Assembly (NCBI GenBank): GCA_943788755.1
Contig: CALSRM010000003.1
Span: 1,612,001 to 1,676,000 of the forward strand
Direction: 5' to 3'
DNA from: an uncultured Flavobacteriales bacterium
Lineage (GTDB): Bacteria > Bacteroidota > Bacteroidia > Flavobacteriales_D > Parvicellaceae
Length of the DNA: 64,000 bases
Within the stretch, counting starts at the first letter, position 1, and each line of letters begins with the position of its first letter. Under the pieces are notes generated by a model, which was given only the letters and a program-made list of their open reading frames with translations, searched no databases and had not been told where the DNA came from. The translations under genes and the position numbers were made by a program. Below are positions 8,530-54,932 of the stretch, in pieces.

Positions 8530-8808
8530 TTGGGAAAAAGAGTGCTATTATTAGGTAAGTATCAATTATCTAATGAAGATTGCGATTTGCGTTTACTTCT
8601 AGGTTACCGTTTAAAAGATGCATTTGTGATTGGGGTGGGAATGAGGTACAAAGATTTTGTTGGAATGATTAGTTACGATTTTAACACTTCTTATTTGTCC
8701 AATTACACGAATGGTAAAGGTGGTTTTGAGTTTGGGATATCTTATCAAGGATTCTATAAAAATGAAAAGATAAAATCCATAATGAAATATAATGCATCGT
8801 TTGATTGA
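8530..8808 (+). pseudogene. PorP/SprF-family C-terminal relic
   Basis: The translated piece (GYRLKDAFVIGVGMRYKD, then ISYDFNTSYLSNYTN and GGFEFGISYQ) matches the last strands of the PorP/SprF family. It is directly comparable with ISYDFNISTLSSATN and GGFEFSLTY at the end of the intact family member at 31634-32611. An in-frame TAG lies immediately upstream (8524-8526) and no signal peptide or N-terminal two thirds of the barrel exists. It is therefore a truncated remnant of a second PorP-type gene. Confidence 0.7.
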
Positions 8809-27720: not shown

Positions 27721-28488
27721 ATGGCACAAAAACTAATTTCGTGGAATTTAAATGGCATTCGAGCCGTCGCAAAAAAAGGCTTAATTGATATTTTACATAG
27801 CGTTAATGCTGACGTTTATTGCTTTCAGGAAACAAAAGCCCAGGATGATCAGGTTATTGAGGCGCTAACTGGTTTGGAGGGGTATCATATTTATTCTTTT
27901 AGTGCTGTAAAAAAGGGATATAGTGGAACGGCTATTTTAACAAAAGAAAAACCAATTTCTGTTGTTAACGGATTAGGAGTGGATGAGCACGATGATGAAG
28001 GTAGAGTATTAACCGCTGAATTTAAAGATTACTATTTAATTACGACTTATGTTCCCAATAGTAAAAGTGGGTTATCGCGATTACCCTACAGAAAAATCTG
28101 GGACGCAGCTTTATTGTCGCACATGCAAGAACTTGAAAAAGCAAAACCTGTTATTATTTGTGGAGATTTGAATGTAGCCCATCAACCATTAGATTTGAAA
28201 AATGATAAAGCAAACTTTAATAAAACTCCTGGATATACTGAACAAGAAATAGGAGGGATGGACAACTATATTAAAGGTGGATTTACCGATAGTTTTAGAC
28301 ACTTTTATCCAAATGAAGAAAAATACTCCTGGTGGAGTTACCGAATGAATGCCAGAGCAAAGAATGTTGGATGGCGGCTCGACTACTTTTTAGTAAGCGA
28401 TGGCTTAATGAATAAAGTAGAAGACGCTTTTATTTTAAATGATATTTTTGGAAGTGACCATTGTCCAGTTGGAATCGATATAAAATAA
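27721..28488 (+). CDS. xth: Exodeoxyribonuclease III (AP endonuclease)
   Basis: This is a base-excision repair enzyme that cuts DNA at abasic sites. The 255-residue protein is full length with the metal and catalytic residues of the ExoIII/APE1 family: SWNLNGIRA, CFQETKA (E36), TYVPNSKSGLSRLPYR, CGDLNVAHQPLDLKN, RLDYFLVS, and the terminal GSDHCPVGIDI with the Asp-His pair. It converges directly on the OmpA-family gene: the two stop codons abut at 28488/28489 with no intergenic base. Confidence 0.95.
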   Translation: MAQKLISWNLNGIRAVAKKGLIDILHSVNADVYCFQETKAQDDQVIEALTGLEGYHIYSFSAVKKGYSGTAILTKEKPISVVNGLGVDEHDDEGRVLTAEFKDYYLITTYVPNSKSGLSRLPYRKIWDAALLSHMQELEKAKPVIICGDLNVAHQPLDLKNDKANFNKTPGYTEQEIGGMDNYIKGGFTDSFRHFYPNEEKYSWWSYRMNARAKNVGWRLDYFLVSDGLMNKVEDAFILNDIFGSDHCPVGIDIK

Positions 28489-30666
28489 TTACCTGTTATT
28501 TTTGAATTCAATTCCAGTAATTTTAAATTCAGTTCTCCGATTCATAGCTCTTCCATCTGGAGTAACATTTGTGTCAATAGGTGCTGTTTCTCCATAGCCT
28601 TTGTAAGTCATTCTTTTTGAGCTAATCCCATAAGCCAATAGGTAATCTACAACTGCTTGTGCCCTTCTGTCTGATAAGCCAATGTTGTATTGATCAGACC
28701 CATTACTATCAGTATGTCCGGATATTTCTACTTCAAGGTGTTTGTTTTTTTCTAAGAAATCACCAATTTTTTCCAATTCAATTATAGATTTCTTTTTAAG
28801 AGTAGATTTATCATTATCGAAGAATACATTGTTTAGCACAACTTTATTTCCAACTTCTAATCGAGTTAGTTCATTGTCTTTTTCAATTTCGATATCTTCT
28901 TCAATTCCAGTTTCTCCCTCAATTCCGGAGACTTCTTCATCTAAGGTGTCTTCTTCAATAGCTTCATTTTCTGAGTACAACATATAATTATCTGAGGTAA
29001 TAGTACTGTCATATTTATTATCGGATTTAAGCGGGATTAAAAATTCATCTGATTCTGGCACACTAATTTTGGGCTCTTCTTCATCTACGGTGTCTACATT
29101 AATTCCGATGCTTTTTTCAATTCCAGTGTCTCCCTCAATTCCGGAGACTTCTTCACCTAAAGTGTCTTCTTCAATAGCTTCATTTTCTGAGTACAACATA
29201 TAATTATCTGAGGTAATAGTACTGTCATATTTATTATCGGATTTAAGCGAGATTAAAAATTCATCTGATTCTGGTACACTAATTTTGGGCTCTTTTATTT
29301 TGGCTAAGATCGAACTGTTTTCTATAGATAGTAAATCATCGTTATTACTTAAGAAACCGATTATTTTTGTCCCTAAAAAAGTTATTTCGTAAATATCTTT
29401 ATCATTCATTTCTTCTCCTTGAGAAGCATAATATGCTTTTTTGTTATCCAATGAAGTTGTGTAGCTAATATCATCTCCAATACTATTTATAGGATATCCC
29501 ATATTATTTAAATTGATAGGCTCTCCTTTGTCATTTATTTTTGCATTAAAAACATCATAACCTCCCATAGAGTTATGGCCCTTTGAACTGAAATAAATTT
29601 CATCTTTAATTGGGTTAACAAAAACTGTGGTTTCATCATATTTTGAATTTACAACATCACCTAAATTTTTAGGTTCAGACCAAATTCCATCGTCTTGCTT
29701 TTTACTTACGTATATATCTTTTCCTCCATATCCACCTGGTCTATTCGAAATAAAATAAATAGAATTTTGATCTGATGAAAAACAAGCTGACGATTCGTGA
29801 TACTGTGTGTTAATTCCTTTAATAGCCTTTGGTTTTCCCCATTCGTTTTTATGCAAATTGCTTATTAATACATCTCCTCCATTTATGTCTCTATAAACCA
29901 GCATAGTTTCCCCATCCATTGACAAACCTATTATCGCATCGTTTGTTTTTTTATTTATTCGGCTAGGTAAACGGGTTGAAGGTGTCCAATTATAATTCTC
30001 CTTAGATGACATGTAAGTGTCTTCATAATACAGCCCATCAAATTCTGCTAAATTTCCACCTTTACCAGAAGGTCTTCTCGATGTGTAATAGAGTTTTTCT
30101 TTATCGCTAGTCAAGAAAATGGCATAGTCTTCGTTGTTTGAATTAATGTTGCTATCGAGTTTGCTGATAATTATTCGGGTGGGGTTACTGGTTAACTCTT
30201 TTGCAGACAAACATTCTTTTTTTTTCTTGTCAACTGGTAATATGTTTTCATTAACCAGACCATCATATCGATTAAAGCATAGCAGTGCTGAATCTATTAA
30301 GTTACTTTGCTGAAATGCAACCCCGAGATAATAATAAATTTCTGGGCTACTATATCCTTTGTCTTTTGCCTCGTAAAGATGATTAAGAGCTATTTTATGA
30401 TTTCCGCTAGTTTTTGTATAATATACTCCTAATTTAAAGCTAGGAACATTAGACTTTTCAAAATCTTGATAGATTGTTAAATACAATTCTAAAGCTTTTT
30501 CATAATATAATGGTCCGGCGTCAAAATATCTATCTGCTTTTCTAATTCTTTTGGTCAATTCCTTGCTCGTGTTCAAAGAATCAACATCAGCAGCAAACCC
30601 AAAAGAATAGTTACAGGCAAAAAGCGCTATAAATACAAATAAATATTTCAGATATATCAGTTTCAT
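28489..30666 (-). CDS. PorE-like TPR/PD40/OmpA peptidoglycan-anchoring protein
   Basis: The start at 30666 gives a signal peptide (MKLIYLKYLFVFIALFACNY) and ~725 residues. Order: TPR-like helices (~35-140), PD40/WD40-like propeller repeats (~165-430; SIYFISNRPGGYGGKDIYV, EIYFSSKGHNSMGGYDVF), an acidic low-complexity linker with a 72-residue tandem duplication, and a C-terminal OmpA domain (~605-720; GHTDSNGSDQYNIGLSDRRA). This is the layout of PorE-type T9SS proteins, which bind peptidoglycan through the OmpA domain. It is the last gene of the adhesin operon, 2 bases after the TPR gene. I infer it anchors or supports export of the giant surface protein rather than being the core PorE. Confidence 0.85.
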   Translation of the reverse strand: MKLIYLKYLFVFIALFACNYSFGFAADVDSLNTSKELTKRIRKADRYFDAGPLYYEKALELYLTIYQDFEKSNVPSFKLGVYYTKTSGNHKIALNHLYEAKDKGYSSPEIYYYLGVAFQQSNLIDSALLCFNRYDGLVNENILPVDKKKKECLSAKELTSNPTRIIISKLDSNINSNNEDYAIFLTSDKEKLYYTSRRPSGKGGNLAEFDGLYYEDTYMSSKENYNWTPSTRLPSRINKKTNDAIIGLSMDGETMLVYRDINGGDVLISNLHKNEWGKPKAIKGINTQYHESSACFSSDQNSIYFISNRPGGYGGKDIYVSKKQDDGIWSEPKNLGDVVNSKYDETTVFVNPIKDEIYFSSKGHNSMGGYDVFNAKINDKGEPINLNNMGYPINSIGDDISYTTSLDNKKAYYASQGEEMNDKDIYEITFLGTKIIGFLSNNDDLLSIENSSILAKIKEPKISVPESDEFLISLKSDNKYDSTITSDNYMLYSENEAIEEDTLGEEVSGIEGDTGIEKSIGINVDTVDEEEPKISVPESDEFLIPLKSDNKYDSTITSDNYMLYSENEAIEEDTLDEEVSGIEGETGIEEDIEIEKDNELTRLEVGNKVVLNNVFFDNDKSTLKKKSIIELEKIGDFLEKNKHLEVEISGHTDSNGSDQYNIGLSDRRAQAVVDYLLAYGISSKRMTYKGYGETAPIDTNVTPDGRAMNRRTEFKITGIEFKNNR
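28861..29292 (-). repeat. 216-base tandem duplication in the OmpA-protein linker
   Basis: Two adjacent 216-base copies (29077-29292 and 28861-29076) encode 72-residue segments starting EPKISVPESDEFLI. Only a few substitutions are seen across most of the length (for example S/P after FLI, G/D after EEDTL), with the ends diverging more. The copies lengthen the acidic linker between propeller and OmpA domain without breaking the frame. Confidence 0.85.
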
Positions 30667-30668
30667 TG

Positions 30669-31634
30669 TTATTCGCAAGTACTTTTTACATGTTGAGTTG
30701 CAGCATTAAATCCTAAGTTAGATGCTTTAATCCAGTCTTCACATGTACTTTCTTTATTCATTAACTGCATATTGCACATACCTCTATTAAAATAAGCTAC
30801 ACCATATTTGGAATCTAATATGATTGCATCATTAAAATCTTTTAACGCTTCTGAATATGACTCCAATTTATACATTGCATATCCTCTATTATTGTATGCG
30901 AAGGCATAAGTGCAGTCAACTTTAATTGCATTGTCAAACTCAAGAATAGCCTTCACGTAATTCCCTAAGGAAAAAAAACAAGTTCCTTTATTGTTATATG
31001 GGATAGCGTATAGAGAATCCAAATCAATTGCTCTATCATAGTCAGCAATTGCATCCTCGTACTTTTTCAACTCTCTGTAACAGCTACCTCTATTATTATA
31101 GACATATGCCAAAGTAGGAGCAATTTCTAATGCTAAAGAATAATTTATTATCGCATTTTCAAAATCTCCTTTTTGTCTATATGCACTAGCCATGTCATTA
31201 TATGCATAAACATAGTCCGATTTAATTTCTAAACATTCTTTGTATGCATCAATTGATTCATCGTATTTTTGATTTAAGAAGTAAGCCCTTCCTAAATAGA
31301 AGTGAGTTTTATAATTGCCATGATTTAATTCCACTGCAATTCTTAAATCAGTGATTCCTTGCTCAATTTTTCCTTTGTCTACGTACAGGTTTCCTCTTCC
31401 TATCCTTGCAAGTTCAAATTGAGGGTGTGCGGAAATAGCTTTTGAAAAGTATGTCACAGCGCTATCCGGTTTTCCAGTCGATAAGAAATCTATAGCATCG
31501 TTATAATGGGTTTCAGCAGCTTGAATTTTCCCCAATTGTTCATCTAATAGAATAGCCGTAGAATCATTTTCCATTTGAGCTGCACCGGATATACAAACAA
31601 AGAATAATAAGGTATGTACAATCAGTTTCTTCAT
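30669..31634 (-). CDS. Secreted TPR-repeat protein of the adhesin operon
   Basis: The 321-residue product has a signal peptide (MKKLIVHTLLFFVCISGAAQ) and about eight tetratricopeptide repeats covering most of the mature protein, for example YAYNDMASAYRQKGDFENAI and YAFAYNNRGYAMYKLESYSE. TPRs form a superhelical scaffold for protein binding. It starts one base inside the porP stop codon (TGATG overlap at 31634) and ends 2 bases before the OmpA gene, so it is translationally coupled to both. Likely a periplasmic adaptor for the secretion or anchoring of the giant protein; this is inference from context. Confidence 0.85.
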   Translation of the reverse strand: MKKLIVHTLLFFVCISGAAQMENDSTAILLDEQLGKIQAAETHYNDAIDFLSTGKPDSAVTYFSKAISAHPQFELARIGRGNLYVDKGKIEQGITDLRIAVELNHGNYKTHFYLGRAYFLNQKYDESIDAYKECLEIKSDYVYAYNDMASAYRQKGDFENAIINYSLALEIAPTLAYVYNNRGSCYRELKKYEDAIADYDRAIDLDSLYAIPYNNKGTCFFSLGNYVKAILEFDNAIKVDCTYAFAYNNRGYAMYKLESYSEALKDFNDAIILDSKYGVAYFNRGMCNMQLMNKESTCEDWIKASNLGFNAATQHVKSTCE

Positions 31635-32611
31635 CAGTAAATACTAGGAAGTAATCCTTCCAAAGATTTTTTATAGGTTAAACTAAATTCGAATCCTCCT
31701 CTATAATTTGTTGCAGAAGAAAGTGTACTAATATTAAAATCGTAACTAATACCAAGCCTTATACTTCTATAAAGTCCTCCAAAATGAATAGCAGCAGCAT
31801 CAAAGTATCGATAGTAAGGTCCTGCAAATACATATAAGTCAGACGCAGAAAGGTATTTGTTCCAAAGAAATCCAATGTTTAATTCATTTACATTTTGTTG
31901 TCTCATAAATAAAACATGAGGCTCCAAGTAGTTTTTATTAGCCATTTCAAATCGGACTCTTGAATATAAAGTCCATCTTATAGGTAGTTTATTGTCTGTA
32001 TCTATAAATGTTTCTTTAGGACTTGTTAAATGATGAGCAGAAACTCCTACAGTTGGTTTTACTTTACTTTTTTTCGTGTTATTAAAATAACAAACTCCAA
32101 AATTTAATTCCGGAAGCATCATACTTATGTTTGCAAATGATTCATAGCTAGGTATTCCTGAATTATATCCACTTACAGAATTTTCGAATTGATTATTATA
32201 TACGAATTGGTTGGAACTGATACTTTTCTGAATAAAACCTAATTGGATCCCAGTAGTTAAATGATGACCATCAGTAGGAGTGTTGGTTATTTCATAAGCT
32301 GTCGATAATGTTAGGTTGGTAACGGTATAGTTGCTTAGACCAGCTTTATTATTCATAGCGAGTAAACCAAATCCAAATTTTTTGTAAGGTTTGTCATATG
32401 AAAATATGGAGGTAGTAAATGGATTTGAAGCGACAGCACTCCACTGATTTCTGTATTGAATATGAGCTTGATATTGTCCTTTAAACATTCCTGTTATTGC
32501 CGGGTTGGTTTGAAGTCTTGATTGATAGAATTGCGACAAATGAGCATCCTGAGCATGCATTGAAATGCAGGTCATTATTAATACATATATGCTAAATATT
32601 TTTCGAATCAT
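31634..32611 (-). CDS. PorP/SprF-family T9SS outer-membrane protein
   Basis: The 325-residue protein has a signal peptide (MIRKIFSIYVLIMTCISMHA) and the family's opening QDAHLSQFYQSRLQTNPAIT, followed by YRNQWSAVASNPFTT. Amphipathic strands of a beta-barrel run to the end (GISYDFNISTLSSATN, GGFEFSLTYK). SprF-like members are required for secretion of specific type B CTD adhesins; in Flavobacterium johnsoniae SprF serves SprB. Its gene follows the giant adhesin after only 7 bases, so it is probably that protein's dedicated partner. Confidence 0.92.
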   Translation of the reverse strand: MIRKIFSIYVLIMTCISMHAQDAHLSQFYQSRLQTNPAITGMFKGQYQAHIQYRNQWSAVASNPFTTSIFSYDKPYKKFGFGLLAMNNKAGLSNYTVTNLTLSTAYEITNTPTDGHHLTTGIQLGFIQKSISSNQFVYNNQFENSVSGYNSGIPSYESFANISMMLPELNFGVCYFNNTKKSKVKPTVGVSAHHLTSPKETFIDTDNKLPIRWTLYSRVRFEMANKNYLEPHVLFMRQQNVNELNIGFLWNKYLSASDLYVFAGPYYRYFDAAAIHFGGLYRSIRLGISYDFNISTLSSATNYRGGFEFSLTYKKSLEGLLPSIY

Positions 32612-32618
32612 TCTACTA

Positions 32619-35600
32619 TTATCTGACTAAAGTTATATCACCTTTCATAGTATACTCTTTTTCATTTAGAGTTACTGCTCTTACTGTATAAACATAAACA
32701 CCAATTGGTTGATCACTATTTAATTTCATTCCATTCCAACCATTACTCTGCTCGGTTGATTGAAAGATTAATTCTCCCCAGTTATTATATATTCTAAATT
32801 CGAATTCTAAGAATGGTCCTCCATCTACAAATAAAATATCGTTTACTCCATCTCCGTTTGGAGTAAAACCACTCGGAACAAAAGGCACTCCATCTAATAT
32901 TGGGCATTCTCCACTAACAAGATTCGTAACAGAATCTCCGCAGCCATTCATTGTGGTAACTGTCAAGCTTACGTAATAATCACCTTCAACTTCATAACTA
33001 TGAGAGGGCTCGATTAATGTGGAAGTATTTTCATCTTCAAAGTCCCAATAATAGCTAATTATGCTATCTCCAGTTACTGCGGTTGAATTTACGAAGGTTA
33101 ATAAATCTGTAACACAATCTCCTTCAAAAGTAAATTCTGCTGCAACAGTTTGTATCGAAACAGATTGTCTTATTGTATCTGAACAACCAGCAACTGTTGT
33201 TACAATTAATTGAACAGAGCTAGTGTCAAGTCCAAAAGCATAGGTTGGGTTTTGAACCAAAGAGCTATCTGTTCCAAAATTCCAATTCCAATCTGAAATT
33301 ATTCCATTTGAAATTGTGGATAAATCGATAAACGGAACTAGTGAGTCGTTACACAATAGATTAAAGCTGAAGTCAGCAACTGGTGATTCAAAGAATGATA
33401 AATCAATTGAATCAAAGTACATTGGACAATTAGGAGATTCTATAAATAATTGTACTCCTCCGTTACTTATGTCGTTGTCACTAGGTATATACGAAGCATT
33501 GAGGACCGAATCGTTTGGTGAAAACACCCCTGTTCCAGTTGTTTGCCATACTAAACTACTGTTACCTCCAAATACGTATACGTCCATGTTTACTGGTAAT
33601 TGTCCAAGACAAACGGTGTCTGGATTTAATATTGAAATGATAGGAGGTATTTCCCAATTTACCATTAATGTATCAGAAATTTCAGGACAACTTCCGTTAT
33701 TTGTAGTAGTTAATATTAAGTTTGCAAACCCTTGCGCTGTATCTGCCTGACTTGGTATATATATCGAATTTAAGACTGTGTCTGAAGGAAAGAAGCTTCC
33801 GGTTCCGAGTGAGCTCCAGCTTCCAGTGGAAGTCCCAGTAGAAACGTTTCCGTTTAATTGAACGTTTATTCCATTAACCGTACAAATTGTAATGTTGGCA
33901 CCGGCATCAGGATTAGGATAAGGATTAAATAATATATCTGTAGATACAGTTACGGCATTGCAAGTGCCATTTCCAGTACTTGTAAGCGCAACAGTAACGA
34001 TTCCAGCAGTGCTATCATTTGCATCACCAAAGTATTGTGTTGATAGACTGGTTTCATCACTAAACATCCCTGTTCCTATTGAGTTCCAGTTAGCCCCGGA
34101 TGCATTATTTACAGTGCCTTCTAAGTCAATCAGAATGTTTTCAATACATACTGGACTTACAACTGAAATTGTAAGTTCTGGAGCTGGAGTTACTTCAATG
34201 TCTATGGTGTCAGAAGCTTCTATACAGGCATTTACTGAAGATAGAACTAGTTGATAGGATCCGGCACCAGGTGGATTGATAAAGTTGGTGTTTACCAAAC
34301 TACTGTCCGTAAAATATCCTCCATTTAGAGAAGTCCACTCGGTTTGTCCAGATCCACCTATTATCGATCCGTTGAGTGGCAGCGGCACGTTAGAGCAAGT
34401 AGTGTCATTTAATCCTGCAATAATTAAGGGAATCGATGTGATTATTATTTCTAAGGTATCATTCTCCGGAAAGCAGTTGCCATTGTCAATAGATTCCAGA
34501 ACAAGTGTTACAGCATGTGCAATAGTATCCGCACTGCTTAATACATATGTTGCATTTAAGGCACTATCATTTGGTAGAAAATATCCAGTTCCTAAAGTAG
34601 TCCATACTCCAACTGTACTTCCAAGTGATACATTTCCTGCCAAAACAGCGGTTGTGTCACCTTCACATAGTATTTGATCTATACCTGCATCAACCAATGG
34701 GGCTGGAGTAATCACCACAAGCAGAGAGTCTTGTTCAAGACATGCATTAGTTGAAGATAAAGTTAATGTGGCAAACCCCGCTAAAGAATCTTGAGAGCTT
34801 GGCTTATAAGTTGCGTTTAAAGCGGTGTTGCTAGGAGTAAAAATACCTGTACCCGAAGTAGACCAGATACCAGTGGCTGTGCTTCCGGAAACATTTCCTG
34901 ATAAGAATACATCTGAGTTGTTTGAACAAACCGTATCATTAGGGCCAGCTATAACGACTGGTCTAGAAGTGAATTGAACAACAATTGAATCGCTAACATC
35001 AATGCAGAATGTTGAGTCAATAGTTTGAGCACTAATAATGATATTTGCAACGGTTGTATCCATTCCACTTGGAATATAAGTAGCGTTTAAATCACTGTTA
35101 TTAGGCAAGAAGCTTCCAGTACCTGATGAACTCCAAATAACACCGATAGAACCACCTCCAATAATAGCGTTTAATGGAATAACGTCATCATTACAAACAA
35201 CTAAGTCAGTGCCAACATCAACGGTAGGAGCAGGAGTTATCGTGATTAAAACCAAATATGTTTCTTCAGAACATATTCCATTGTTAGTAGTAGTAAGGGC
35301 TAGAACTACAAAACCTGCCATTTTATCTGCTGCACTTGGAATATAAACATTATTAAGAATAGTTTCATTTTCAGTGAAAAATCCAGATCCAAAGGTACTC
35401 CAAATACCAGTAGAAGTTGGTCCAAATATTTGACCTACAAGATAGGCTGTGTCGTTATTTGCACATATACTAATATCTGGACCACCATTGGCATAAGGAG
35501 CAGGAGTTATTGTGGTAATCATGGTGTCAATATCGGCAACGCACCCGCTAAAATTAGTAGGCGTAAAGGTTAATGTTACATTTCCTGCCAAAGAATCATC

Positions 35601-47600: not shown

Positions 47601-50600
47601 AACAGCAGCAGGAGCGGAGAACGAACCACCTGGGGTACCTGTAATAGTAGGCGAAGGATCAGCATCTCCTTGACAGAAAGCAGCAGCAGCATAAGTAAAA
47701 GACGGATCATCTAAAATGATTGTGACATTAAAAGTGGTAGCATTAGGACAGGTACCAGCTGTAGTATAAGTTACAACATAAGGTCCACCTGCAGTGGAAG
47801 CCGACACATCGATTTCCCCCGTAGCAGCATTAATGGAAAGGGCAGCAGGCGCGGTAAATGTACCACCGACTGTACCCGTAATAGTAGGGGTAGGATCAGC
47901 GCCCCCTTGACAGTAGGAAGCTGAAGCATAACTGAATGAAGGATCATCTTCTGCAACCACATCCACTGTGAAAGTGGTAGCATTAGAGCAAGTCCCTGGA
48001 GTGGTGTATGTAATAACATAACCAGCTCCCACCGTAGAAGCAGAAAGATCAATCACTCCAGTGGATGCATTAATAGAAACTGCAGCCGGAGCGGTAAATG
48101 TCCCCCCAATAGTTCCGGTAACCGTAGGAGAAGGATCAGCATCTCCTTGACAGAAAGAAGCGGCAGCATAGGTAAAAGCAGGGTTCTCTTCTAGCTCAAT
48201 GGTTACATCGAATGTTGTGCTGTTCGGACAAGTTCCGACAGTAGTATAAGTTATTGTATAAGTAGCTCCACCAGTAGAAGCCGAAAGATCGATTACTCCG
48301 GTACCGCCAACAATGGAAAGACCAGCAGTGGAAGTAAATGTACCACCGGCAGTTCCAGTAATAGTAGGCGTAGGATCGGCATCATCCTGACAGTAAGAAG
48401 CCGCAGGATAAGTAAACGAAGGATCATCTTCTGGATCAACAGATACATCGAAAGTTGTACTGTTAGAGCACCCTCCAGGAGTTGTATAAGTTATAGTATA
48501 AGCCCCACCCACAGTAGAAGCGGACAGGTCAATTTCACCAGTAGAAGCGTTAATAGACACCGCAGCAGGTGCAGTAAATGTACCACCCGCTGTTCCGGTA
48601 ATGGTTGGAAGTGGATCAGCATCCCCTTGACAGAAAGAAGCCGCTGCATAGGTAAATGCAGGATCATCTTCAATATTAATTGTCACATCAAAAGTTGTAC
48701 TGTTAGGACAAGTACCTCCCGTAGTATAAGTCACGGTATAAGTAGCCCCAGCAGTAGAAGCAGAAAGATCAATCACTCCGGTACCTCCAACAATGGAAAG
48801 ACCAGCAGTGGAAGTAAATGTACCACCGGCAGTTCCAGTAATAGTAGGCGTAGGATCGGCATCATCCTGACAGTAAGAAGCCGCAGGATAAGTAAACGAA
48901 GGATCATCTTCTGGATCAACAGATACATCGAAAGTTGTACTGTTAGAGCACCCTCCAGGAGTAGTATAAGTTATAGTATAAGCCCCACCCACAGTAGAAG
49001 CGGACAGGTCAATTTCACCAGTAGAAGCGTTAATAGACACCGCAGCAGGTGCAGTAAATGTACCACCCGCTGTTCCGGTAATGGTTGGAAGTGGATCAGC
49101 ATCCCCTTGACAGAAAGCAGCCGCTGCATAGGTAAATGCAGGATCATCTTCAATATTAATTGTCACATCAAAAGTTGTACTGTTCGGACAAGTACCTCCC
49201 GTAGTATAAGTCACGGTATAAGTAGCCCCAGCAGTAGAAGCAGAAAGATCAATCACTCCGGTACCTCCAACAATGGAAAGCCCTGCATTAGAAGTAAATG
49301 TACCACCCGCTGTTCCTGTAATGGTAGGCGTAGGATCTGCATCATCCTGACAATAAGCTGCTGCAGGATAAGTAAATGCAGGATCATCTTCCGGATCAAT
49401 AGTTACATCAAAAGTTGTGCTGTTGGAGCATGTTCCAGGAGTGGTGTAGGTAATGGTATAAGCCCCACCCACAGTAGAAGCGGACAGATCAATTTCACCA
49501 GTAGAAGCGTTAATAGATACCGCAGCAGGTGCAGTAAATGTACCCCCAGCGGTACCAGTAATGGTTGGAAGTGGATCAGCATCCCCTTGACAGAAAGAAG
49601 CCGCGGCATAAGTAAAAGCAGGATCTTCTTCTGCTTCAATGGTTACATCGAATGTTGTGCTATTAGGACAAATCCCTCCAGTGGTATAGGTTACAGTGTA
49701 AGTAGCTCCTGTAGTAGAAGCCGATACATCGATTACTCCAGTACCGGCAATAATGGAAAGTCCCGCAGTAGAAGTAAATGTACCCCCTATGGTACCAGTA
49801 ATAGTAGGGGTAGGGTCAGCATCCCCTTGACAGTATGAAGCTGCAGGGTAAGTAAAGGCAGGATCATCTTCAGCATCGATTGAGATATCAAAAGTAGCCC
49901 CAATCGGACAAGCTCCTGAAGTAGTGTAAGTAATGGTATAAGGTCCACCCACAGTCGAAGCAGATAAATCAATTACCCCAGTAGAAGCGTTTATGGAAAC
50001 AGCAGCAGGAGCGGAGAACGAACCACCTGGGGTACCTGTAATAGTAGGCGAAGGATCAGCATCTCCTTGACAGAAAGCAGCAGCAGCATAAGTAAAAGAC
50101 GGATCATCTAAAATGATTGTGACATTAAAAGTGGTAGCATTAGGACAGGTACCAGCTGTAGTATAAGTTACAACATAAGGTCCACCTGCAGTGGAAGCCG
50201 ACACATCGATTTCCCCCGTAGCAGCATTAATGGAAAGGGCAGCAGGCGCGGTAAATGTACCACCGACTGTACCCGTAATAGTAGGGGTAGGATCAGCGCC
50301 CCCTTGACAGTAGGATGCAGCAGGGTATGTAAAAGCGGGATTATCTTCTGCTTCAATATCAATTGTAAAAGTTGTGTTGTTTGTACAAGTCCCTGGAGTT
50401 GTATAAGTAATGACATAACCAACGGCCACAGTAGAAGCCGATAGATCAATCATGCCAGTCGAGGCATTAATAGAAATACCAACAGGAGCAGTGAAAGTTC
50501 CACCGATAGTACCTGTAATAGTAGGAGACGGATCAGCATCACCTTGACAGAAAGAAGCGGTAGTATAAGTAAAAGCTGGATCTTCTTCGGGAGCAATGGT

Positions 50601-53600
50601 GACATCAAACGTTGTACTGTTCGGACAAGAACCTCCTGTTGTATAAGTTATAGTATAAGTAGCTCCTGAAGTTGAAGCAGAAAGATCAATTTCTCCAGTC
50701 CCTGCGATAATAGAAAGCCCAGCAGTAGAAGTAAATGTACCACCGGCAGTTCCCGTAACAGTTGGAGTTGGATCTACATCATCTTGACAGTAGGATGCAG
50801 CAGGGTATGTAAAAGCGGGATTATCTTCTGCTTCAATATCAATTGTAAAAGTTGTGTTGTTTGTACAAGTCCCTGGAGTTGTATAAGTAATGACATAACC
50901 AACGGCCACAGTAGAAGCCGATAGATCAATCACGCCAGTCGAGGCATTAATAGAAATACCAACAGGAGCAGTGAAAGTTCCACCGATAGTACCTGTAATA
51001 GTAGGAGACGGATCAGCATCACCTTGACAGAAAGAAGCGGTAGTATAAGTAAAAGCTGGATCTTCTTCGGGAGCAATGGTGACATCAAACGTTGTACTGT
51101 TCGGACAAGAACCTCCTGTTGTATAAGTTATAGTATAAGTAGCTCCTGAAGTTGAAGCAGAAAGATCAATTTCTCCAGTCCCTGCGATAATAGAAAGCCC
51201 AGCAGTAGAAGTAAATGTACCACCGGCAGTTCCCGTAACAGTTGGAGTTGGATCTACATCATCTTGACAGTAGGATGCAGCAGGGTATGTAAAAGCGGGA
51301 TTATCTTCTGCTTCAATATCAATTGTAAAAGTTGTGTTGTTTGTACAAGTCCCTGGAGTTGTATAAGTAATGACATAACCAACGGCCAAAGTAGAAGCCG
51401 ATAGATCAATCACGCCAGTCGAGGCATTAATAGAAATACCAACAGGAGCAGTGAAAGTTCCACCGATAGTACCTGTAATAGTAGGAGACGGATCAGCATC
51501 ACCTTGACAGAAAGAAGCGGCAGTATAAGTAAAAGCTGGATCTTCTTCGGGAGCAATGGTGACATCAAACGTTGTACTGTTCGGACAAGAACCTCCTGTT
51601 GTATAAGTTATAGTATAAGTAGCTCCTGAAGTTGAAGCAGAAAGATCAATTTCTCCAGTACCGGCATTGATAATTAAACCAGCAGTCGAAGTAAATGTTC
51701 CTCCCACAGTTCCCGTAACAGTAGGAGTTGGATCTACATCATCTTGACAGTAGGATGCAGCAGGGTATGTAAAAGCGGGATCATCTTCTGGGTCAATTGT
51801 AAGATCGAAAGTTGCTCCAATTGGACAAGACCCTGAAGTAGTATAAGTAATCGTATATGGACCACCCGCTGTAGAAGCAGATAGGTCAATAACCCCGGTA
51901 GAAGCATTAATAGAAAGACCAGCTGGCCCCGCAAATGAACCCCCAGCCGTCCCCGTAATAGTAGGAGAAGGATCAGCATCCCCTTGGCAAAATACAGCCC
52001 CGGAATAAGAAAATGAAGGATCATCCAATATAATAGTAATATTAAAAGTTGCGCTGTTAGGGCATGCACTAGCGGTTGTGTAAGTAACGGTATATGCCCC
52101 TCCAGAAGTGCTTGCAGAAACATCAATTTCTCCAGTAGCAGCATTAATAGAAACTCCAGCTGGCGCAGAAAATGTACCTCCAACTGTCCCTGAAATAGTA
52201 GGAGTAGGATCAGCACCACCTTGACAATAAGAAGCAGATGTATAAGAGAAAGAAGGGTCATCTTCAGCGACAATATCTAAAGTGAAGGTTGTGTTATTAG
52301 CACAAACACCTGGCGTAATATATGTAATAATGTATCCAACTGCCACAGTAGAAGCAGAAAGATCAATTTCACCAGTAGAAGCATTGATAGAAAGCCCAGC
52401 CGGTGCAGAGAAGGTTCCTCCAGTAGTCCCCGTAATAGTAGGGGTAGGATCAGGGTCCCCTTGACAGAAACTTGCAGCGGTATATGAAAAAGCAGGATCC
52501 TCTTCAGCCAAAATTGTAATTGCAACGTTACTACCAATTGGACAAGAAATACTTGTACTATAATTTATAAGGTACGGCCCTCCAACTGTTGATGCATCCA
52601 GATCAATCAGACCAGTTACAGCATTAATTGATACTGCGACAGGAGCGGAAAAAGTCCCTCCTCCGGTACCTGTAACGGTAGCAATTGGGTCTGCATCTCC
52701 TTCGCAATATGAGGCTGCAGGGTATGTAAATGTTGGATCATCTAAAATAATAACAATATCAAAAGTTGTGAAATTAGGGCAGGTTCCTCCGGTTGTATAG
52801 GTAATTGAAAATGGACCGCCCGCTGCGGAAGCAGATACATCAATTACCCCTGTTCCCGAATTAATTGAGATTCCAGCGGGAGCCGTAAAAGTTCCTCCAG
52901 CTGTTCCCGTTATGGTTGGAGTGGCATCTGCTCCAGCTTGACAGTAACTTGCAAATGGATATGTAAATGACGGGTCGTCTTCAGCAGCAATAGCAACGTT
53001 AAAAGTTGCTGAATTAGAACATACGCCACCAGTTGTATATGTAATAATGTAGATTCCACCAGAAGTTGAAGCGGACACATCAATCGCACCAGTTCCAGCA
53101 TTAATAATTAATCCAGCTGGAGCAGTAAATATACCGCCTGCGGTTCCTGTAATTGTTGGAGTAGGGTCTGACTCTCCTTGACAATAACTAGCAGCACTAT
53201 ATCCAAAAGTGGGATCATCTTCAGCTATTATGGATAGGTTAAAAGTCGTATTACTTGAACAAGTTCCAGGAGTAGTGTAAGTTATGGTATAAGGCCCTCC
53301 AATTACGCTTGTGGATAAATCTATTGCACCAGTAGTGGTATTGATAGAAACTCCAGCAGGACCTGAAAAAAGTCCGCCAGGAGTTCCTGTGATAGTAGGA
53401 GCAGGATCAGTACCTGCTTGGCAAAATATAGTTGATGAATAAGTAAAATTAGGATCTTCCATTTGATTGATAGTCAAAGTCATATCATTGCTTGCAACAG
53501 GGCATCCGCCATTTCCAGTGGAGGTTAATGTTAAAGTTACACTGCCGGCAGTTATTTCACCGGCAGTAGGCGTGTACGTAGGGTCGATAGTATTTTCATC

Positions 53601-54671
53601 CGGTAAAAAGACTCCTGCACCCCCAGACCATGTTCCGCCGGTTGCCATTGTAATTGTTCCATCTAGTGAATAAGTTGGGTTATCTTCACAAACAGTATTA
53701 TCAAATCCAGCGTTTGCTGTAATTGGAGATGTAAATTCTATAACGGTAACCGAATCTCTTACGGATCCGCAATCCAAAGTATCGGATATTTCAACCCAAT
53801 AAATTCCAGTAGCAGTAGCAATTATAGACTGTGTTGTTTCACCTGTATTCCATAAGTAGGTGTAAGGTTCCGCACCTCCACTTCCATTTGCGGTCATTCC
53901 AGTACCGGTTCCTCCAAAACAAATGACAGGGTCTTTAGGATCAATGGCGACGGCTAAAGTTGAAACAAAAAACACACGAACAGTGTCAACTGAAGTTGAA
54001 GAAACGCATCCAGCTAACGGACTTCCTGATAATTCAAAATCTACATATGGAGGATACCCTGGCGCAGGAGTTACTAAAACAGTGTCACATCCTGTGTTGC
54101 AATCAATGTAGCTGTCATAATCTCCATTGGCTCCCGGGAAAACAGATGTCCAAATCACAGAGGTTTCATCATATCCTGTAGCAATTAATGTGTCTTGACA
54201 GCCTTCACTTACGGTTATATCGTTTGAAACTTCAGTTTCTTGAACAGATGTTATTTGATAGTCATTTGTGTTTCCGCCTGGCTTACAGAAAACTACATAA
54301 AAAGGTCCAGTTCCTTCTAGGCAAACCAATTGATTAGCGGGTTGAGCTGGAACCTCACATTCTGTATTAAGAGCATCCATTAATTGCCATTCAATAATGG
54401 AGGGTGCGGCACCACCCGTTATCTCAAATACAATTCCATCAGAATCAGGATGCAGTGTAACTTCAAATTTTACACAAGGCTGATTATTGGGTCGTCCACA
54501 GCAATTTTTTAAAGACCTGCCAACGCTAGCCATAGTCCATACACTATCTGCGTTGTTGGATAAATCTACAACAATAATAGGTGAGTTTGGGCTACAAGCA
54601 CCAACTTGTGCGTTTACATTATTTGAAAATAGCGCAAAAACAAGCAGATGTATTATGGCAATCTTGCGCAT
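32619..54671 (-). CDS. Giant repetitive T9SS surface adhesin
   Basis: The start at 54671 gives a signal peptide (MRKIAIIHLLVFALFSNNVN) and a 7,350-residue protein. Order: signal peptide; Cys-rich N-terminal region; one SprB-like repeat (GGAEPYTYLWNTGETTQS) at about residues 265-310; one B-type module; 56 A-type modules of ~80 residues (F-T/S-Y...YCQ/FCQ, TPTITGT.GGTFTAPAG, TG.IDLSAST, YTITYTT); about 25 B-type modules of ~85 residues (DAG....VC, GTGSFSPN, LTSTNNG.C); two PKD-like domains; and a C-terminal type B sorting domain (SGFTPNGDGVNDIL, RIYNNWGELIF). It should be exported by T9SS and displayed at the cell surface as a very long flexible adhesin like SprB. The whole frame is open. GC content looks higher than in its neighbours. 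It heads an operon with porP, a TPR gene and a PorE-like gene. Confidence 0.95.
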   Translation of the reverse strand: MRKIAIIHLLVFALFSNNVNAQVGACSPNSPIIVVDLSNNADSVWTMASVGRSLKNCCGRPNNQPCVKFEVTLHPDSDGIVFEITGGAAPSIIEWQLMDALNTECEVPAQPANQLVCLEGTGPFYVVFCKPGGNTNDYQITSVQETEVSNDITVSEGCQDTLIATGYDETSVIWTSVFPGANGDYDSYIDCNTGCDTVLVTPAPGYPPYVDFELSGSPLAGCVSSTSVDTVRVFFVSTLAVAIDPKDPVICFGGTGTGMTANGSGGAEPYTYLWNTGETTQSIIATATGIYWVEISDTLDCGSVRDSVTVIEFTSPITANAGFDNTVCEDNPTYSLDGTITMATGGTWSGGAGVFLPDENTIDPTYTPTAGEITAGSVTLTLTSTGNGGCPVASNDMTLTINQMEDPNFTYSSTIFCQAGTDPAPTITGTPGGLFSGPAGVSINTTTGAIDLSTSVIGGPYTITYTTPGTCSSNTTFNLSIIAEDDPTFGYSAASYCQGESDPTPTITGTAGGIFTAPAGLIINAGTGAIDVSASTSGGIYIITYTTGGVCSNSATFNVAIAAEDDPSFTYPFASYCQAGADATPTITGTAGGTFTAPAGISINSGTGVIDVSASAAGGPFSITYTTGGTCPNFTTFDIVIILDDPTFTYPAASYCEGDADPIATVTGTGGGTFSAPVAVSINAVTGLIDLDASTVGGPYLINYSTSISCPIGSNVAITILAEEDPAFSYTAASFCQGDPDPTPTITGTTGGTFSAPAGLSINASTGEIDLSASTVAVGYIITYITPGVCANNTTFTLDIVAEDDPSFSYTSASYCQGGADPTPTISGTVGGTFSAPAGVSINAATGEIDVSASTSGGAYTVTYTTASACPNSATFNITIILDDPSFSYSGAVFCQGDADPSPTITGTAGGSFAGPAGLSINASTGVIDLSASTAGGPYTITYTTSGSCPIGATFDLTIDPEDDPAFTYPAASYCQDDVDPTPTVTGTVGGTFTSTAGLIINAGTGEIDLSASTSGATYTITYTTGGSCPNSTTFDVTIAPEEDPAFTYTAASFCQGDADPSPTITGTIGGTFTAPVGISINASTGVIDLSASTLAVGYVITYTTPGTCTNNTTFTIDIEAEDNPAFTYPAASYCQDDVDPTPTVTGTAGGTFTSTAGLSIIAGTGEIDLSASTSGATYTITYTTGGSCPNSTTFDVTIAPEEDPAFTYTTASFCQGDADPSPTITGTIGGTFTAPVGISINASTGVIDLSASTVAVGYVITYTTPGTCTNNTTFTIDIEAEDNPAFTYPAASYCQDDVDPTPTVTGTAGGTFTSTAGLSIIAGTGEIDLSASTSGATYTITYTTGGSCPNSTTFDVTIAPEEDPAFTYTTASFCQGDADPSPTITGTIGGTFTAPVGISINASTGMIDLSASTVAVGYVITYTTPGTCTNNTTFTIDIEAEDNPAFTYPAASYCQGGADPTPTITGTVGGTFTAPAALSINAATGEIDVSASTAGGPYVVTYTTAGTCPNATTFNVTIILDDPSFTYAAAAFCQGDADPSPTITGTPGGSFSAPAAVSINASTGVIDLSASTVGGPYTITYTTSGACPIGATFDISIDAEDDPAFTYPAASYCQGDADPTPTITGTIGGTFTSTAGLSIIAGTGVIDVSASTTGATYTVTYTTGGICPNSTTFDVTIEAEEDPAFTYAAASFCQGDADPLPTITGTAGGTFTAPAAVSINASTGEIDLSASTVGGAYTITYTTPGTCSNSTTFDVTIDPEDDPAFTYPAAAYCQDDADPTPTITGTAGGTFTSNAGLSIVGGTGVIDLSASTAGATYTVTYTTGGTCPNSTTFDVTINIEDDPAFTYAAAAFCQGDADPLPTITGTAGGTFTAPAAVSINASTGEIDLSASTVGGAYTITYTTPGGCSNSTTFDVSVDPEDDPSFTYPAASYCQDDADPTPTITGTAGGTFTSTAGLSIVGGTGVIDLSASTAGATYTVTYTTGGTCPNSTTFDVTINIEDDPAFTYAAASFCQGDADPLPTITGTAGGTFTAPAAVSINASTGEIDLSASTVGGAYTITYTTPGGCSNSTTFDVSVDPEDDPSFTYPAASYCQDDADPTPTITGTAGGTFTSTAGLSIVGGTGVIDLSASTGGATYTITYTTVGTCPNSTTFDVTIELEENPAFTYAAASFCQGDADPSPTVTGTIGGTFTAPAAVSINASTGVIDLSASTVGAGYVITYTTPGTCSNATTFTVDVVAEDDPSFSYASASYCQGGADPTPTITGTVGGTFTAPAALSINAATGEIDVSASTAGGPYVVTYTTAGTCPNATTFNVTIILDDPSFTYAAAAFCQGDADPSPTITGTPGGSFSAPAAVSINASTGVIDLSASTVGGPYTITYTTSGACPIGATFDISIDAEDDPAFTYPAASYCQGDADPTPTITGTIGGTFTSTAGLSIIAGTGVIDVSASTTGATYTVTYTTGGICPNSTTFDVTIEAEEDPAFTYAAASFCQGDADPLPTITGTAGGTFTAPAAVSINASTGEIDLSASTVGGAYTITYTTPGTCSNSTTFDVTIDPEDDPAFTYPAAAYCQDDADPTPTITGTAGGTFTSTAGLSIVGGTGVIDLSASTAGATYTVTYTTGGTCPNSTTFDVTINIEDDPAFTYAAASYCTGIADPTPTITGTGGGTFTAPAGIVLDALTGVLDLSACTAGGPYVITYTTPGTCSNFDTFDVTIVANDDPAFTYTAATFCQTGSDPTPTITGLGGGTFSEASGNIIFISTATGEIDVSASTLGGPYSIDYVTNGPCPDSLTVDVTLTSGFDAEFSYVGSPYCEQGINPSPVYTTGSPGTFSAIPGGLSFVNINTGEVDLTASTPGTYTISNTIPASGGCIGVVETFDITINPIDDPSFTYVFASYCQGGADPTPTITGLGGGTFTSTAGLSINAGTGEIDVSASTAGGPYVVTYTTGGTCPNSTTFNITIILDDPSFTYAAASFCQGDADPSPTITGTAGGTFSAPAAVSINVSTGVIDLSASTAGGPYSITYTTSGACPIGVTFNITIIAEDDPSFSYASASYCQGGADPTPTITGTVGGTFTAPAALSINAATGEIDVSASTAGGPYVVTYTTAGTCPNATTFNVTIILDDPSFTYAAAAFCQGDADPSPTITGTPGGSFSAPAAVSINASTGVIDLSASTVGGPYTITYTTSGACPIGATFDISIDAEDDPAFTYPAASYCQGDADPTPTITGTIGGTFTSTAGLSIIAGTGVIDVSASTTGATYTVTYTTGGICPNSTTFDVTIEAEEDPAFTYAAASFCQGDADPLPTITGTAGGTFTAPAAVSINASTGEIDLSASTVGGAYTITYTTPGTCSNSTTFDVTIDPEDDPAFTYPAAAYCQDDADPTPTITGTAGGTFTSNAGLSIVGGTGVIDLSASTAGATYTVTYTTGGTCPNSTTFDVTINIEDDPAFTYAAAAFCQGDADPLPTITGTAGGTFTAPAAVSINASTGEIDLSASTVGGAYTITYTTPGGCSNSTTFDVTIDPEDDPAFTYSAASYCFSDPDPTPTITGTVGGVFTSAPAGLSINALTGEIDIASSTVGGPYTVTYTTVGICPNSTTFDVSIVTIGDPSFTYAAASFCQGDVDPLPTVTGTPGGTYTATAGLSINLSTGEIDLSASTVGGPYTVTYTTPGSCNSSTTFDVSVDPEDDPSFTYPAASYCQDDADPTPTITGTAGGTFTSTAGLSIVGGTGVIDLSASTGGATYTITYTTVGTCPNSTTFDVTIELEENPAFTYAAASFCQGDADPSPTVTGTIGGTFTAPAAVSINASTGVIDLSASTVGAGYVITYTTPGTCSNATTFTVDVVAEDDPSFSYASASYCQGGADPTPTITGTVGGTFTAPAALSINAATGEIDVSASTAGGPYVVTYTTAGTCPNATTFNVTIILDDPSFTYAAAAFCQGDADPSPTITGTPGGSFSAPAAVSINASTGVIDLSASTVGGPYTITYTTSGACPIGATFDISIDAEDDPAFTYPAASYCQGDADPTPTITGTIGGTFTSTAGLSIIAGTGVIDVSASTTGATYTVTYTTGGICPNSTTFDVTIEAEEDPAFTYAAASFCQGDADPLPTITGTAGGTFTAPAAVSINASTGEIDLSASTVGGAYTITYTTPGTCSNSTTFDVTIDPEDDPAFSYTAASYCISDPNPTPTITGNAGGTFTSTAGLVINAGTGEVDLATSAIGAYTVTYATGGICPNSTTFNIAIVTTGDPSFTYTANNYCQSDANPLPTVTGGPGGTYSATTGLVINLSTGEIDLAASSIGGPYIVTYTTPGSCNSSTTFNIDVLPEDNPSFTYPAATYCKDDANPTPTIMGTAGGTFTSTAGLIINAGTGVIDLSASTSGATYTVTYTTGGTCPNSTTYNVSIVLDDPSFTYASTNYCQGAADPAPIITGDPGGAFSAPAAISINLSTGVIDLSASTAGGPYTITYTAPGGCANSATFEVTIDPEDDPSFTYVAPSYCQGGADPTPVITGISGGIFTATAGLIINAGTGVIDASASTAGGPYVVTYTTGGTCPNATTFNVTIILDDPSFTYAAAAFCQGDADPSPTITGTASGSFSAPAAVSINASTGVIDLSTSAVGGPYTIAYTTSGSCPIGATFDLTINPEDDPAFTYGAASYCLTDLNPTPTVSGAAGGIFTATAGLSIDAGSGEINVATSTVGGPYIVTYSTSGLCPNNTTFNITIVTDDDPSFAYSSNTYCQGDINPVPIVTGAAGGTFTAPAGVVLNGSTGEINLISSTLGGPYTITYTTAGSCSSATTFDITIDSEDDPSFIFDVSTYCQSESNPIPSLTGLSGGTFSAPGGVSINAGTGEINLSASTVGGPYAITYTTTGICPNTASFNISILDSLNVDAGLDDIVCFHAANVNLNGTVPISGIWSTSGTGSFSPNNSLMTASYIPTIADSTAGQVTLTLTSTNNGGCAAAIDSIIVTINPGIYVDAGSSQTVCADTAGIDLTGTIIGATGGQWSTNGGGSFSPNNSLLTASYLPTASDTIFDSVMVVLSSTGNGGCIAVTDTIFIIMTAPPVSNAGLDLSACATNPVFNLSGTISGGSSSGIWTTDGDGAFSIPTTDLNAIYTAGDTDTTAGSVNLYLTSTLNGMCQAIVDTVELSFSNGVIVDPGIDLTVCENNDTINLNGIITGATSTGSWSTSGSGDFNPNNSLLTASYNSSAADHNSGSVYLTLSSTNNGGCLLEKDSILITYTPMPAVDAGLDENICANNPSIILSGTVSGGSTSGRWFSLGSGSFFPNDTTFNATYTASPTDIAVGFVDLFLVSTNNGICLPIADTVRLNITQPPLINTGIAPSICNDDSLQLNGMINSGSNTAIWSSLGTGSFNPISTDLNAYYVPGSADTLAGTVQLVLTSTNNLGCLAVDDTLVVNFTPRPLVAIDSLDGSVCGNNADINIYGNISGSSTTGIWTSSGTGSFTPNDSSLTATYIPSIADIAAGSVLITLTSTNSCASTDTATAYFTPAPQVNANVDQFICFGDMDAVLDGSVSGITTEGVWSSSGSGTFAPNNSILNATYNLSTADSIAGGFDLILTSINNGTCSENTDTLTITITGVPIIDAGIPDTSCSNALVSLSGNVSGGPTTGGWETLGDGNFTPDTSDLNAQYQFGAGDISAGNVNIVLHSTLACASISDTLELVVTPGPISNAGNDTTVCSNNVNINLNGIISGITTTGIWTSSGTGIFSPNPSALNASYIPSAADILQDSISLILSTTNNGECNSDLDSLKIYLSSPPTVNAGNNIAVCVGDTSASLVGFVSGATTTGIWTTLGSGYFSPNDSTLNGLYVLSPDDIAANGTSIILTSTNNGVCNSNDDTLAITITTAPLVNAGFDNSACANTQVVLIGSISGGTTTGVWTTLGNGTFSDSSSMNPIYSFGTSETATGSVNLILTSTDACIDKSDTVNYLVSKPPVSIAGSNQVVCYNNPAISLIGEITGASSTGLWTSSGSGIFIPNNSSLIVNYVPSVPDKNNGSVILTLTSTNNGDCNPNADAMLVTITPPPLVEAGINELICTTDNISLLGSVSGGSASGEWTSSGSGTFLPSNTVLNPTYVPSPADTTNGFVNIALTSTNNGTCNTVSDTLLITIVPTPFVNAGNDETACGNNGIVNLFGTVSGSAISGEWSTLGTGNFSPSDTLLTTNYIPSQTDQNSGFVQLILNSTNSCNKADTVYINYTPSPVVDAGPDVFVCISNPNVALNGSVSGGSTTGTWTTSGTGSFSPNNTTLTATYIPSPADTIAGLVEITLTSTNNGSCNPEEDTIYIHIVDNPTVSAGNNQTVCANVPIQLGGTITGASEGLWESLGTGYFVPDATDFNATYVISSDDSLAGNVTLTFTPTNFSGCVADIDTMITTITPAPYANGGPDISICANNDTAYLVGQIFGPTSTGIWSTFGSGFFTENETILNNVYIPSAADKMAGFVVLALTTTNNGICSEETYLVLITITPAPTVDVGTDLVVCNDDVIPLNAIIGGGSIGVIWSSSGTGSFLPNNSDLNATYIPSGMDTTVANIIISAQTIDSTFCIDVSDSIVVQFTSRPVVIAGPNDTVCSNNSDVFLSGNVSGSTATGIWSTSGTGIFTPSNTALNATYKPSSQDSLAGFATLTLSSTNACLEQDSLLVVITPAPLVDAGIDQILCEGDTTAVLAGNVSLGSTVGVWTTLGTGYFLPNDSALNATYVLSSADTIAHAVTLVLESIDNGNCFPENDTLEIIITSIPLIIAGLNDTTCSNVPLPLNGSIIGGSGQTEWTSLNGGYFTDSSLVNTNFINPPGAGSYQLVLSSVNACIEASDTIDIEVTPAPELTISVVSPVCIENILIDLEGTVNNASGANWNSIGTGMFSDETSLSTQYFGDANDSTAGIVTVALTSTGNGTCNAVTVSTDILFNPYPNPDAGANITICTVNGINVQLNGNVSTGTSTGSWSSLGTGSFFPSDTVLNSIYIPSQADTAQGFANLILTTTNNGSCPEISDTLMVNWEIPPIISILNPDTVCLGQLPVNMDVYVFGGNSSLVWQTTGTGVFSPNDSVLNASYIPSDNDISNGGVQLFIESPNCPMYFDSIDLSFFESPVADFSFNLLCNDSLVPFIDLSTISNGIISDWNWNFGTDSSLVQNPTYAFGLDTSSVQLIVTTVAGCSDTIRQSVSIQTVAAEFTFEGDCVTDLLTFVNSTAVTGDSIISYYWDFEDENTSTLIEPSHSYEVEGDYYVSLTVTTMNGCGDSVTNLVSGECPILDGVPFVPSGFTPNGDGVNDILFVDGGPFLEFEFRIYNNWGELIFQSTEQSNGWNGMKLNSDQPIGVYVYTVRAVTLNEKEYTMKGDITLVR
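32622..32911 (-). other. Type B C-terminal sorting domain (CHU_C class)
   Basis: The last ~95 residues carry the gliding-motility-associated C-terminal domain signature: FVPSGFTPNGDGVNDIL, FEFRIYNNWGELIFQS, NGWNG, and IGVYVYTVRAV. This class directs T9SS export and depends on PorP/SprF-type partners, matching the next gene of the operon. Confidence 0.93.
33390..40035 (-). repeat. B-type module array, about 25 diverged copies
   Basis: By reading the translation I count about 25 consecutive modules of ~80-90 residues with a shared pattern: DAG or NAG, VC or IC, L-G at a turn, TTG.W.SSGTG.F.P, LNA.Y.PS..D...G, and LTSTNNG.C near the end. These look like Ig-like beta modules. Copies have diverged, so this array is older than the A-type array. 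Two PKD-like domains (NWNFGTDSS, YYWDFEDENTST) at about 32912-33389 separate it from the sorting domain. Confidence 0.85.
42165..50315 (-). repeat. Four near-identical blocks with a ten-module higher-order period
   Basis: Blocks at 42165-43106, 44565-45506, 46977-47918 and 49374-50315 (942 bases, about four modules each) show no difference in my line-by-line reading. Their spacings are 2,400, 2,412 and 2,397 bases, all multiples of three. Blocks one and three stay identical for about 1,466 bases (42165-43630 and 46977-48442). In module order they are numbers 14-17, 24-27, 34-37 and 44-47, exactly ten apart. Confidence 0.85.
50316..51755 (-). repeat. Triple 480-base tandem repeat within the A array
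   Basis: Three direct copies of a 480-base (two-module, 160-residue) unit start at 50316, 50796 and 51276. They differ at only a few positions, for example CATGCC/CACGCC near 50450/50930, except that the third copy diverges over its last ~100 bases. They correspond to modules 8-13. Confidence 0.85.
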
Positions 54672-54902
54672 TAATTTACTTGCTAGTGTTAATTGTAATG
54701 TTATTTGTTCTCTTGCCCCCATGTACAAAAACTAACTTTGCGAAAAAACAAAGTATTTTACCTGTATATGAGGTCACAATATAGTAATTAACTTAGGAAT
54801 GTTAGTAAGTTTCGTTATGTTTTATGCATTACTTGTAGAAATTTTAGAATAAACTTCATTTTCATAAGAAATTAATCAAGGTTAAGTGGTTTTATGTGGC
54901 AT

Positions 54903-54932
54903 AAAAAAAGCCGATTAATTAGAATCGGCTTT
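54903..54932 (-). terminator. Rho-independent terminator after the coiled-coil protein gene
   Basis: Read on the minus strand, GCCGATT and AATCGGC pair across a short A/T loop and are followed by seven T. It lies 18 bases past the stop of the gene at 54950-56284 and isolates it from the adhesin operon downstream. Confidence 0.85.

Follow-up and report, generated by a model that had tools for sequence, protein, structure and literature searches.

The window, a stretch of 64,000 nucleotides of Flavobacteriales DNA, carries on its minus strand a cassette of four open reading frames, which encode, in 5′ to 3′ order, a giant CTD protein, a PorP, a TPR protein and a PorE-like protein. The features of the locus are as follows, in the direction of transcription.

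54895..54930, minus strand: probable intrinsic terminator of the upstream gene, AGCCGATT-CTAATT-AATCGGCT followed by a T-run, recognized by eye
32619..54671, minus strand: giant T9SS type B adhesin, 7,350 amino acids, stop at 32619 and ATG at 54671
40026..53456 (approximate), minus strand: about 56 tandem type-1 repeats of the giant, 79–81 amino acids each (240 bp), from repeat analysis
33396..40025 (approximate), minus strand: about 25 type-2 repeats of the giant, 86–90 amino acids each and usually with two Cys, from the translation
32930..33106, minus strand: PKD domain of the giant (PF18911, 57.1 bits), with a second PKD-like unit just before it, seen by eye
32622..32879, minus strand: type B C-terminal sorting domain of the giant (TIGR04131/CHU_C), from profile matches
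31634..32611, minus strand: PorP/SprF-family outer-membrane carrier, 325 amino acids
30669..31634, minus strand: periplasmic TPR protein, 321 amino acids, with a predicted signal peptide
28489..30666, minus strand: PorE-like protein with a PD40 propeller and an OmpA_C domain, stop at 28489 and ATG at 30666

The giant and PorP genes are separated by 7 bases, the PorP and TPR genes overlap by 1 base, and 2 bases lie between the TPR and PorE-like genes. Re-reading all four genes on one strand thus confirmed the preliminary description of this DNA, which had listed a CTD protein of 7,350 amino acids, a PorP, a TPR and a PorE-like protein with 7-base, overlapping and 2-base junctions. As far as gene spacing indicates, the −1 and +2 base junctions imply translational coupling. 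The upstream gene ends at 54950 and the terminator-like hairpin lies in the gap before the giant, which suggests that the giant starts its own transcript; this hairpin was seen by eye only and was not reported by a consensus terminator scan. Downstream, a convergent gene for exodeoxyribonuclease III (27721–28488) ends where the PorE-like gene ends. The tight junctions, the hairpin upstream and the convergent gene downstream make it likely, albeit unproven, that the four genes form one operon. Sigma-70-like promoter sites occurred at chance level only and no promoter was assigned, while a crude Bacteroidota-type promoter pattern, itself near chance overall, gave nothing upstream of the giant.

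The giant starts with MRKIAIIHLL (its 7,350 residues being counted from the ATG at 54671) and carries an N-terminal Sec signal peptide, MRKIAIIHLLVFALFSNNVNA-Q, read from the sequence without a predictor. Its C-terminal end matches TIGR04131 (42.2 bits, cut-off 35) and PF13585 CHU_C (56.9 bits), i.e. a type B CTD. The protein is strongly acidic, with 30 K+R against 659 D+E (0.4% and 9% of residues respectively), and contains 183 Cys. Two Cys stand at fixed positions in nearly every type-1 unit, a pattern compatible with one disulfide per domain. Two consecutive type-1 repeats, modelled by AlphaFold2 with only the window's own repeats as alignment input, gave an all-beta structure (mean pLDDT 90.6) whose best PDB matches in Foldseek were cadherins and Ig domains (E 2.7e-6 and weaker, TM ~0.4); the type-1 repeat is thus predicted to be an Ig/cadherin-like beta-sandwich, these Foldseek matches being weak. 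DUF642 and similar Pfam matches on the giant were set aside, none of them passing the stretch threshold.

Typical repeat units of the giant share 68% of their bases, and the gene also contains exact direct DNA repeats of 1,467, 1,343 and about 1,000 bp. Four copies of a block agree in every base over 720 bp. Such identical blocks reflect either recent amplification or assembly copying, and because of the perfect repeats of 1.0–1.5 kb the copy number and exact length of the giant depend on the assembly and are uncertain. The same repeat is found in one other cassette of the genome (C3:666683-670288), behind a metalloprotease-like N-terminus and together with a PorP and a short PorE-like gene. 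At L012 (9010-16899, minus strand), a CTD gene combines a metalloprotease-like HEMGHTFGLEH motif with these 80-amino-acid repeats and is interrupted by an in-frame TAA. The PorE-like protein next to it is short (434 amino acids) and did not match the OmpA part of its counterpart in the window.

The carrier encoded 7 bases from the giant is a clear member of its family (TIGR03519, 164.6 bits, cut-off 90.55; PF11751, 118.6 bits). Its C-terminal tail, TYKKSLEGLLPSIY, lacks the Cys-X-Cys of SprF-type mobile carriers and has no Cys at all. The earlier proposal that this PorP is the cognate partner of the type B CTD agrees with published work (PMC9143113, PMC12618676), and such a pairing is probable here. 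Elsewhere in the window, a weak match to the PorP C-terminus lies in a 93-amino-acid frame at 8599-8745 (plus strand), possibly a remnant.

The TPR protein matches Pfam TPR_1 with 165 bits. In the PorE-like protein the OmpA (PF00691, 84.5 bits) and PD40 (PF07676, 34.3 bits) matches exceed their cut-offs, while those to NCBIfam PorE (NF052230) and CHU_0125 over residues 37–432 remain below theirs (249 against 600 and 260 against 620 bits respectively); as these scores are far under the cut-offs, we call the protein PorE-like and not PorE. The best PorE candidate found in the genome, at L157, reaches 511 bits against NF052230 (cut-off 600). At the N-terminus of the PorE-like protein the NF052230 alignment starts at residue 37, but there is no Pfam TPR match at E 0.01, and a possible lipobox, LFAC, occurs at residue 22, although its Cys is not conserved in relatives (this residue and the triad below are numbered as in P0001, a frame that begins 4 codons ahead of the ATG). 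The three residues with which PorE binds DAP (Asp576, Asn584 and Arg591; PMC7192894) are retained in the OmpA_C domain of the window protein as Asp657, Asn665 and Arg672, with spacing identical to that in 6TOP, which supports a role of this domain as a peptidoglycan anchor by analogy with PorE.

Both the TPR and the PorE-like protein have their best matches away from PorP. All 29 of the 29 best TPR matches were TPR genes with a PorE-like neighbour standing alone, without PorP; the window TPR is homologous to the TPR gene that precedes these stand-alone PorE-like genes, and the gene order is the same. The copies inspected in the window's own genome (L128 and L148) are likewise not adjacent to PorP. 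Many genomes of the order carry one or two copies of this conserved TPR and PorE-like pair (L128-L148), away from PorP; no name or function was found for it. The window PorE-like protein scores up to 345 bits against the stand-alone proteins and at most 200 against the PorP-linked ones. In a 66-row tree it falls on the stand-alone side of a split with 97% SH-aLRT, and a reduced tree groups it with the TPR-paired relatives (86/81 support); in an AU test on the reduced set, grouping with the PorP-linked proteins was not rejected (p=0.36). Its lineage thus appears moderately resolved. No nearer copy of the gene was found in a phylum-wide sample or in one collection scan. The most economical reading, which we infer with moderate support from these comparisons, is that a TPR–PorE unit was recruited from a PorP-free lineage and replaced the usual PorE behind the CTD–PorP pair. 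For P. gingivalis, PG1057 was also considered as a TPR protein that partners PorE and was ruled out, being a QueE homologue.

Neighbourhoods were read locus by locus. The genome as a whole has about 20 genes of the PorP family and 35 type B CTDs that exceed the cut-off, and most of these PorP genes are immediately preceded by a CTD gene. A PorE-like gene follows a CTD–PorP pair at five further loci of the same genome (L009, L012, L016, L020 and L021), and this order recurs across relatives. At L025 (6890-9001, minus strand), a type B CTD gene is followed by a single 703-amino-acid fusion of PorP with an OmpA-type domain; this natural fusion, which has no Cys in the whole protein, argues for physical coupling of the two components. 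The core CTD–PorP–PorE cassette is therefore of an already known kind, and what is unusual in the window is the type of anchor. Of the suggestion that the same gene order be sought elsewhere, the two halves stand, CTD–PorP–PorE and TPR–PorE each being conserved, whereas all four genes together, with a separate TPR gene, were seen in no other genome inspected; lower-ranked TPR matches were inspected only in part, and another four-gene cassette may exist. Two further genes, a PorE-like gene at L021 (5804-8018, minus strand) and a PorP at L026 (7966-9023, minus strand), are split over two frames through frameshifts or sequencing errors. Double cassettes, CTD–PorP followed by CTD–PorP–PorE, occur at L079, L080, L083, L086 and L088, the first PorP having a highly charged, Cys-free tail.

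Cargo length was compared in 53 CTD–PorP pairs and in the window. The median was 1,257 amino acids for cargos with PorE and 1,203 for those without, many of the latter lengths being lower bounds, and the two groups did not differ overall (Mann–Whitney p=0.66). The other PorE-linked cargos measured 364–1,428 amino acids (three of them cut by a contig or locus end), with the exception of the L012 gene (about 2,630 codons, one in-frame stop), while all other cargos of more than 1,900 amino acids lacked an adjacent PorE, e.g. a 5,284-amino-acid frame with PorP in the same genome. Among the cassettes sampled, the window alone joins an intact cargo of more than 2,000 amino acids with a PorE-like anchor. 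The preliminary description had seen the TPR and OmpA proteins as a platform for an unusually long cargo; the peptidoglycan anchor is upheld by the intact DAP residues, but the link to length is not, given this comparison and the short cargos that have PorE.

Cys residues were counted from alignments in the 61 adjacent PorP–PorE pairs in which both sites were readable. In 33 of these (L079, L080, L020, L093, L201, L205 and others) PorP had a Cys among its final 14 residues (typically CPRL or CPDY) and PorE had at least two in an insert in its last propeller blade; the other 28 (L169-L197 and the window, whose PorE-like protein has no junction Cys) had neither, and no pair had one site alone. 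On the PorP tree each Cys trait changes only twice, at one deep split and in the window itself, so the 61 pairs are not independent and an independent-pairs or sign test has no power. The window PorP falls inside the Cys-bearing group at 87–88% SH-aLRT, a value under the customary threshold. A tail Cys also occurs in many PorP proteins that lack an adjacent PorE, so it may have other partners. The co-occurrence nevertheless predicts an intermolecular PorP–PorE disulfide, i.e. a covalent bond from an outer-membrane carrier to a peptidoglycan-binding protein, and a full-text search of open-licence papers found no description of one. Permanent intermolecular disulfides between periplasmic proteins are almost unknown, and the movement of SprF depends on the bonding of its tail Cys-X-Cys to a single Cys of GldK (PMC12635249). 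The predicted bond follows the same twin-Cys and single-Cys logic as SprF/PorG–GldK, but with the twin on PorE instead of on SprF/PorG. We tentatively suggest, at somewhat less than even odds, that two anchor chemistries exist, a disulfide between the PorP tail Cys and the PorE twin Cys and a non-covalent one, and that the window is a natural swap in which a carrier related to the Cys lineage lacks the tail Cys and is combined with a TPR–PorE-like unit without junction Cys. The Cys co-occurrence offers a simple sequence test of how a carrier is tied down.

Taken together, we consider it probable that the cassette forms a single operon serving a T9SS type B surface fibre that is displayed without moving, anchored to the wall through the PorP, PorE-like and TPR proteins. 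Sec would carry the giant across the inner membrane, and the general SprA translocon of the genome would pass it through the outer one. There the neighbouring PorP would take it off by its CTD and stay bound as an outer-membrane base, which the OmpA domain of the PorE-like protein would tie to peptidoglycan with the TPR protein as a putative adaptor. With PorP tied to the wall, the fibre would stand still and not ride the gliding track. These binding steps are modelled on systems in which they have been studied: a PorE–PorP–PG1035 complex was demonstrated in P. gingivalis by pull-down and crosslinking, and the same publication has SprF bound to SprB (PMC9143113); static wall anchoring has been proposed for five CTD–SprF–PorE operons of F. 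johnsoniae, one such cargo having been seen to be static (PMC12618676).

A SprB-like gliding adhesin, carried on the track by PorP with the TPR and PorE-like proteins as accessory motility factors in the manner of sprC and sprD, is an unlikely alternative that keeps some weight because the genome encodes GldJ (over its cut-off, also elsewhere in the genome) as well as SprA (2,515 bits, 1.4 Mb from the cassette). SprB is of similar size (about 6,500 amino acids, 150 nm; PMC13104615), and sprB shares an operon with sprC, sprD and sprF. The Cys pair through which SprF is bonded to GldK is, however, missing from the window PorP tail, although this absence alone does not prove a static state, and the mobile cargos of F. 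johnsoniae are not in operons with PorE-like genes (PMC12618676).

We regard as more improbable still an export platform made of the TPR and OmpA proteins, dedicated to pushing out an unusually long cargo and needed for it. The window is alone in the sample both in pairing an intact cargo of this length with a PorE-like anchor and in having a separate TPR gene, but long cargos elsewhere, such as the 5,284-residue frame, manage with PorP and no PorE, and short ones have PorE. Moreover, the PorP–PG1035 complex of P. gingivalis formed without PorE (PMC9143113); since PorE is dispensable there, anchoring is the better reading of the added proteins. The label of a self-contained export module had to be dropped in any case, as export needs the general T9SS, with SprA encoded far from the cassette. 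It seems equally improbable that the TPR–PorE pair is an unrelated stand-alone envelope unit that lies downstream of CTD–PorP by chance. Such a unit was indeed away from PorP at every other locus inspected, those of the same genome included; against this stand the coupling implied by the two tight junctions, the recurrence of PorE-like genes behind CTD–PorP, and the absence of the usual PorE from the locus, so that the TPR–PorE pair takes its place. Static anchoring of the fibre therefore remains the reading that we prefer.

Among known arrangements, the stand-alone TPR and PorE-like pairs of the order provide the best matches of both window proteins in the same order, but have neither PorP nor CTD genes beside them on that strand. 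The sprCDBF gliding operon of F. johnsoniae resembles the cassette in its giant type B adhesin (SprB, about 6,500 amino acids), its own SprF and its four genes; it differs in that the SprF tail Cys-X-Cys is bonded to GldK, SprB moves and no PorE-like gene is adjacent (PMC9143113). The P. gingivalis PG1035–PorP–PorE complex (PMC9143113) has the same three component classes and is the direct physical precedent for the proposed chain, although it has no described TPR partner and PG1035 is far smaller, with bands near 50 kDa. The F. johnsoniae operons of the Fjoh_3952-3951-3950 type (PMC12618676) share the type B cargo, the adjacent PorP/SprF and the downstream PorE-like gene in one operon, whereas the window has a TPR gene between PorP and PorE, a PorE-like protein that resembles another subfamily and a cargo of 7,350 amino acids. 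What assigns some type B adhesins to the moving gliding track and others to static anchoring at the wall is a live question (PMC12618676, PMC12635249), and to the anchors known so far the window adds a variant in which the TPR protein is separate.
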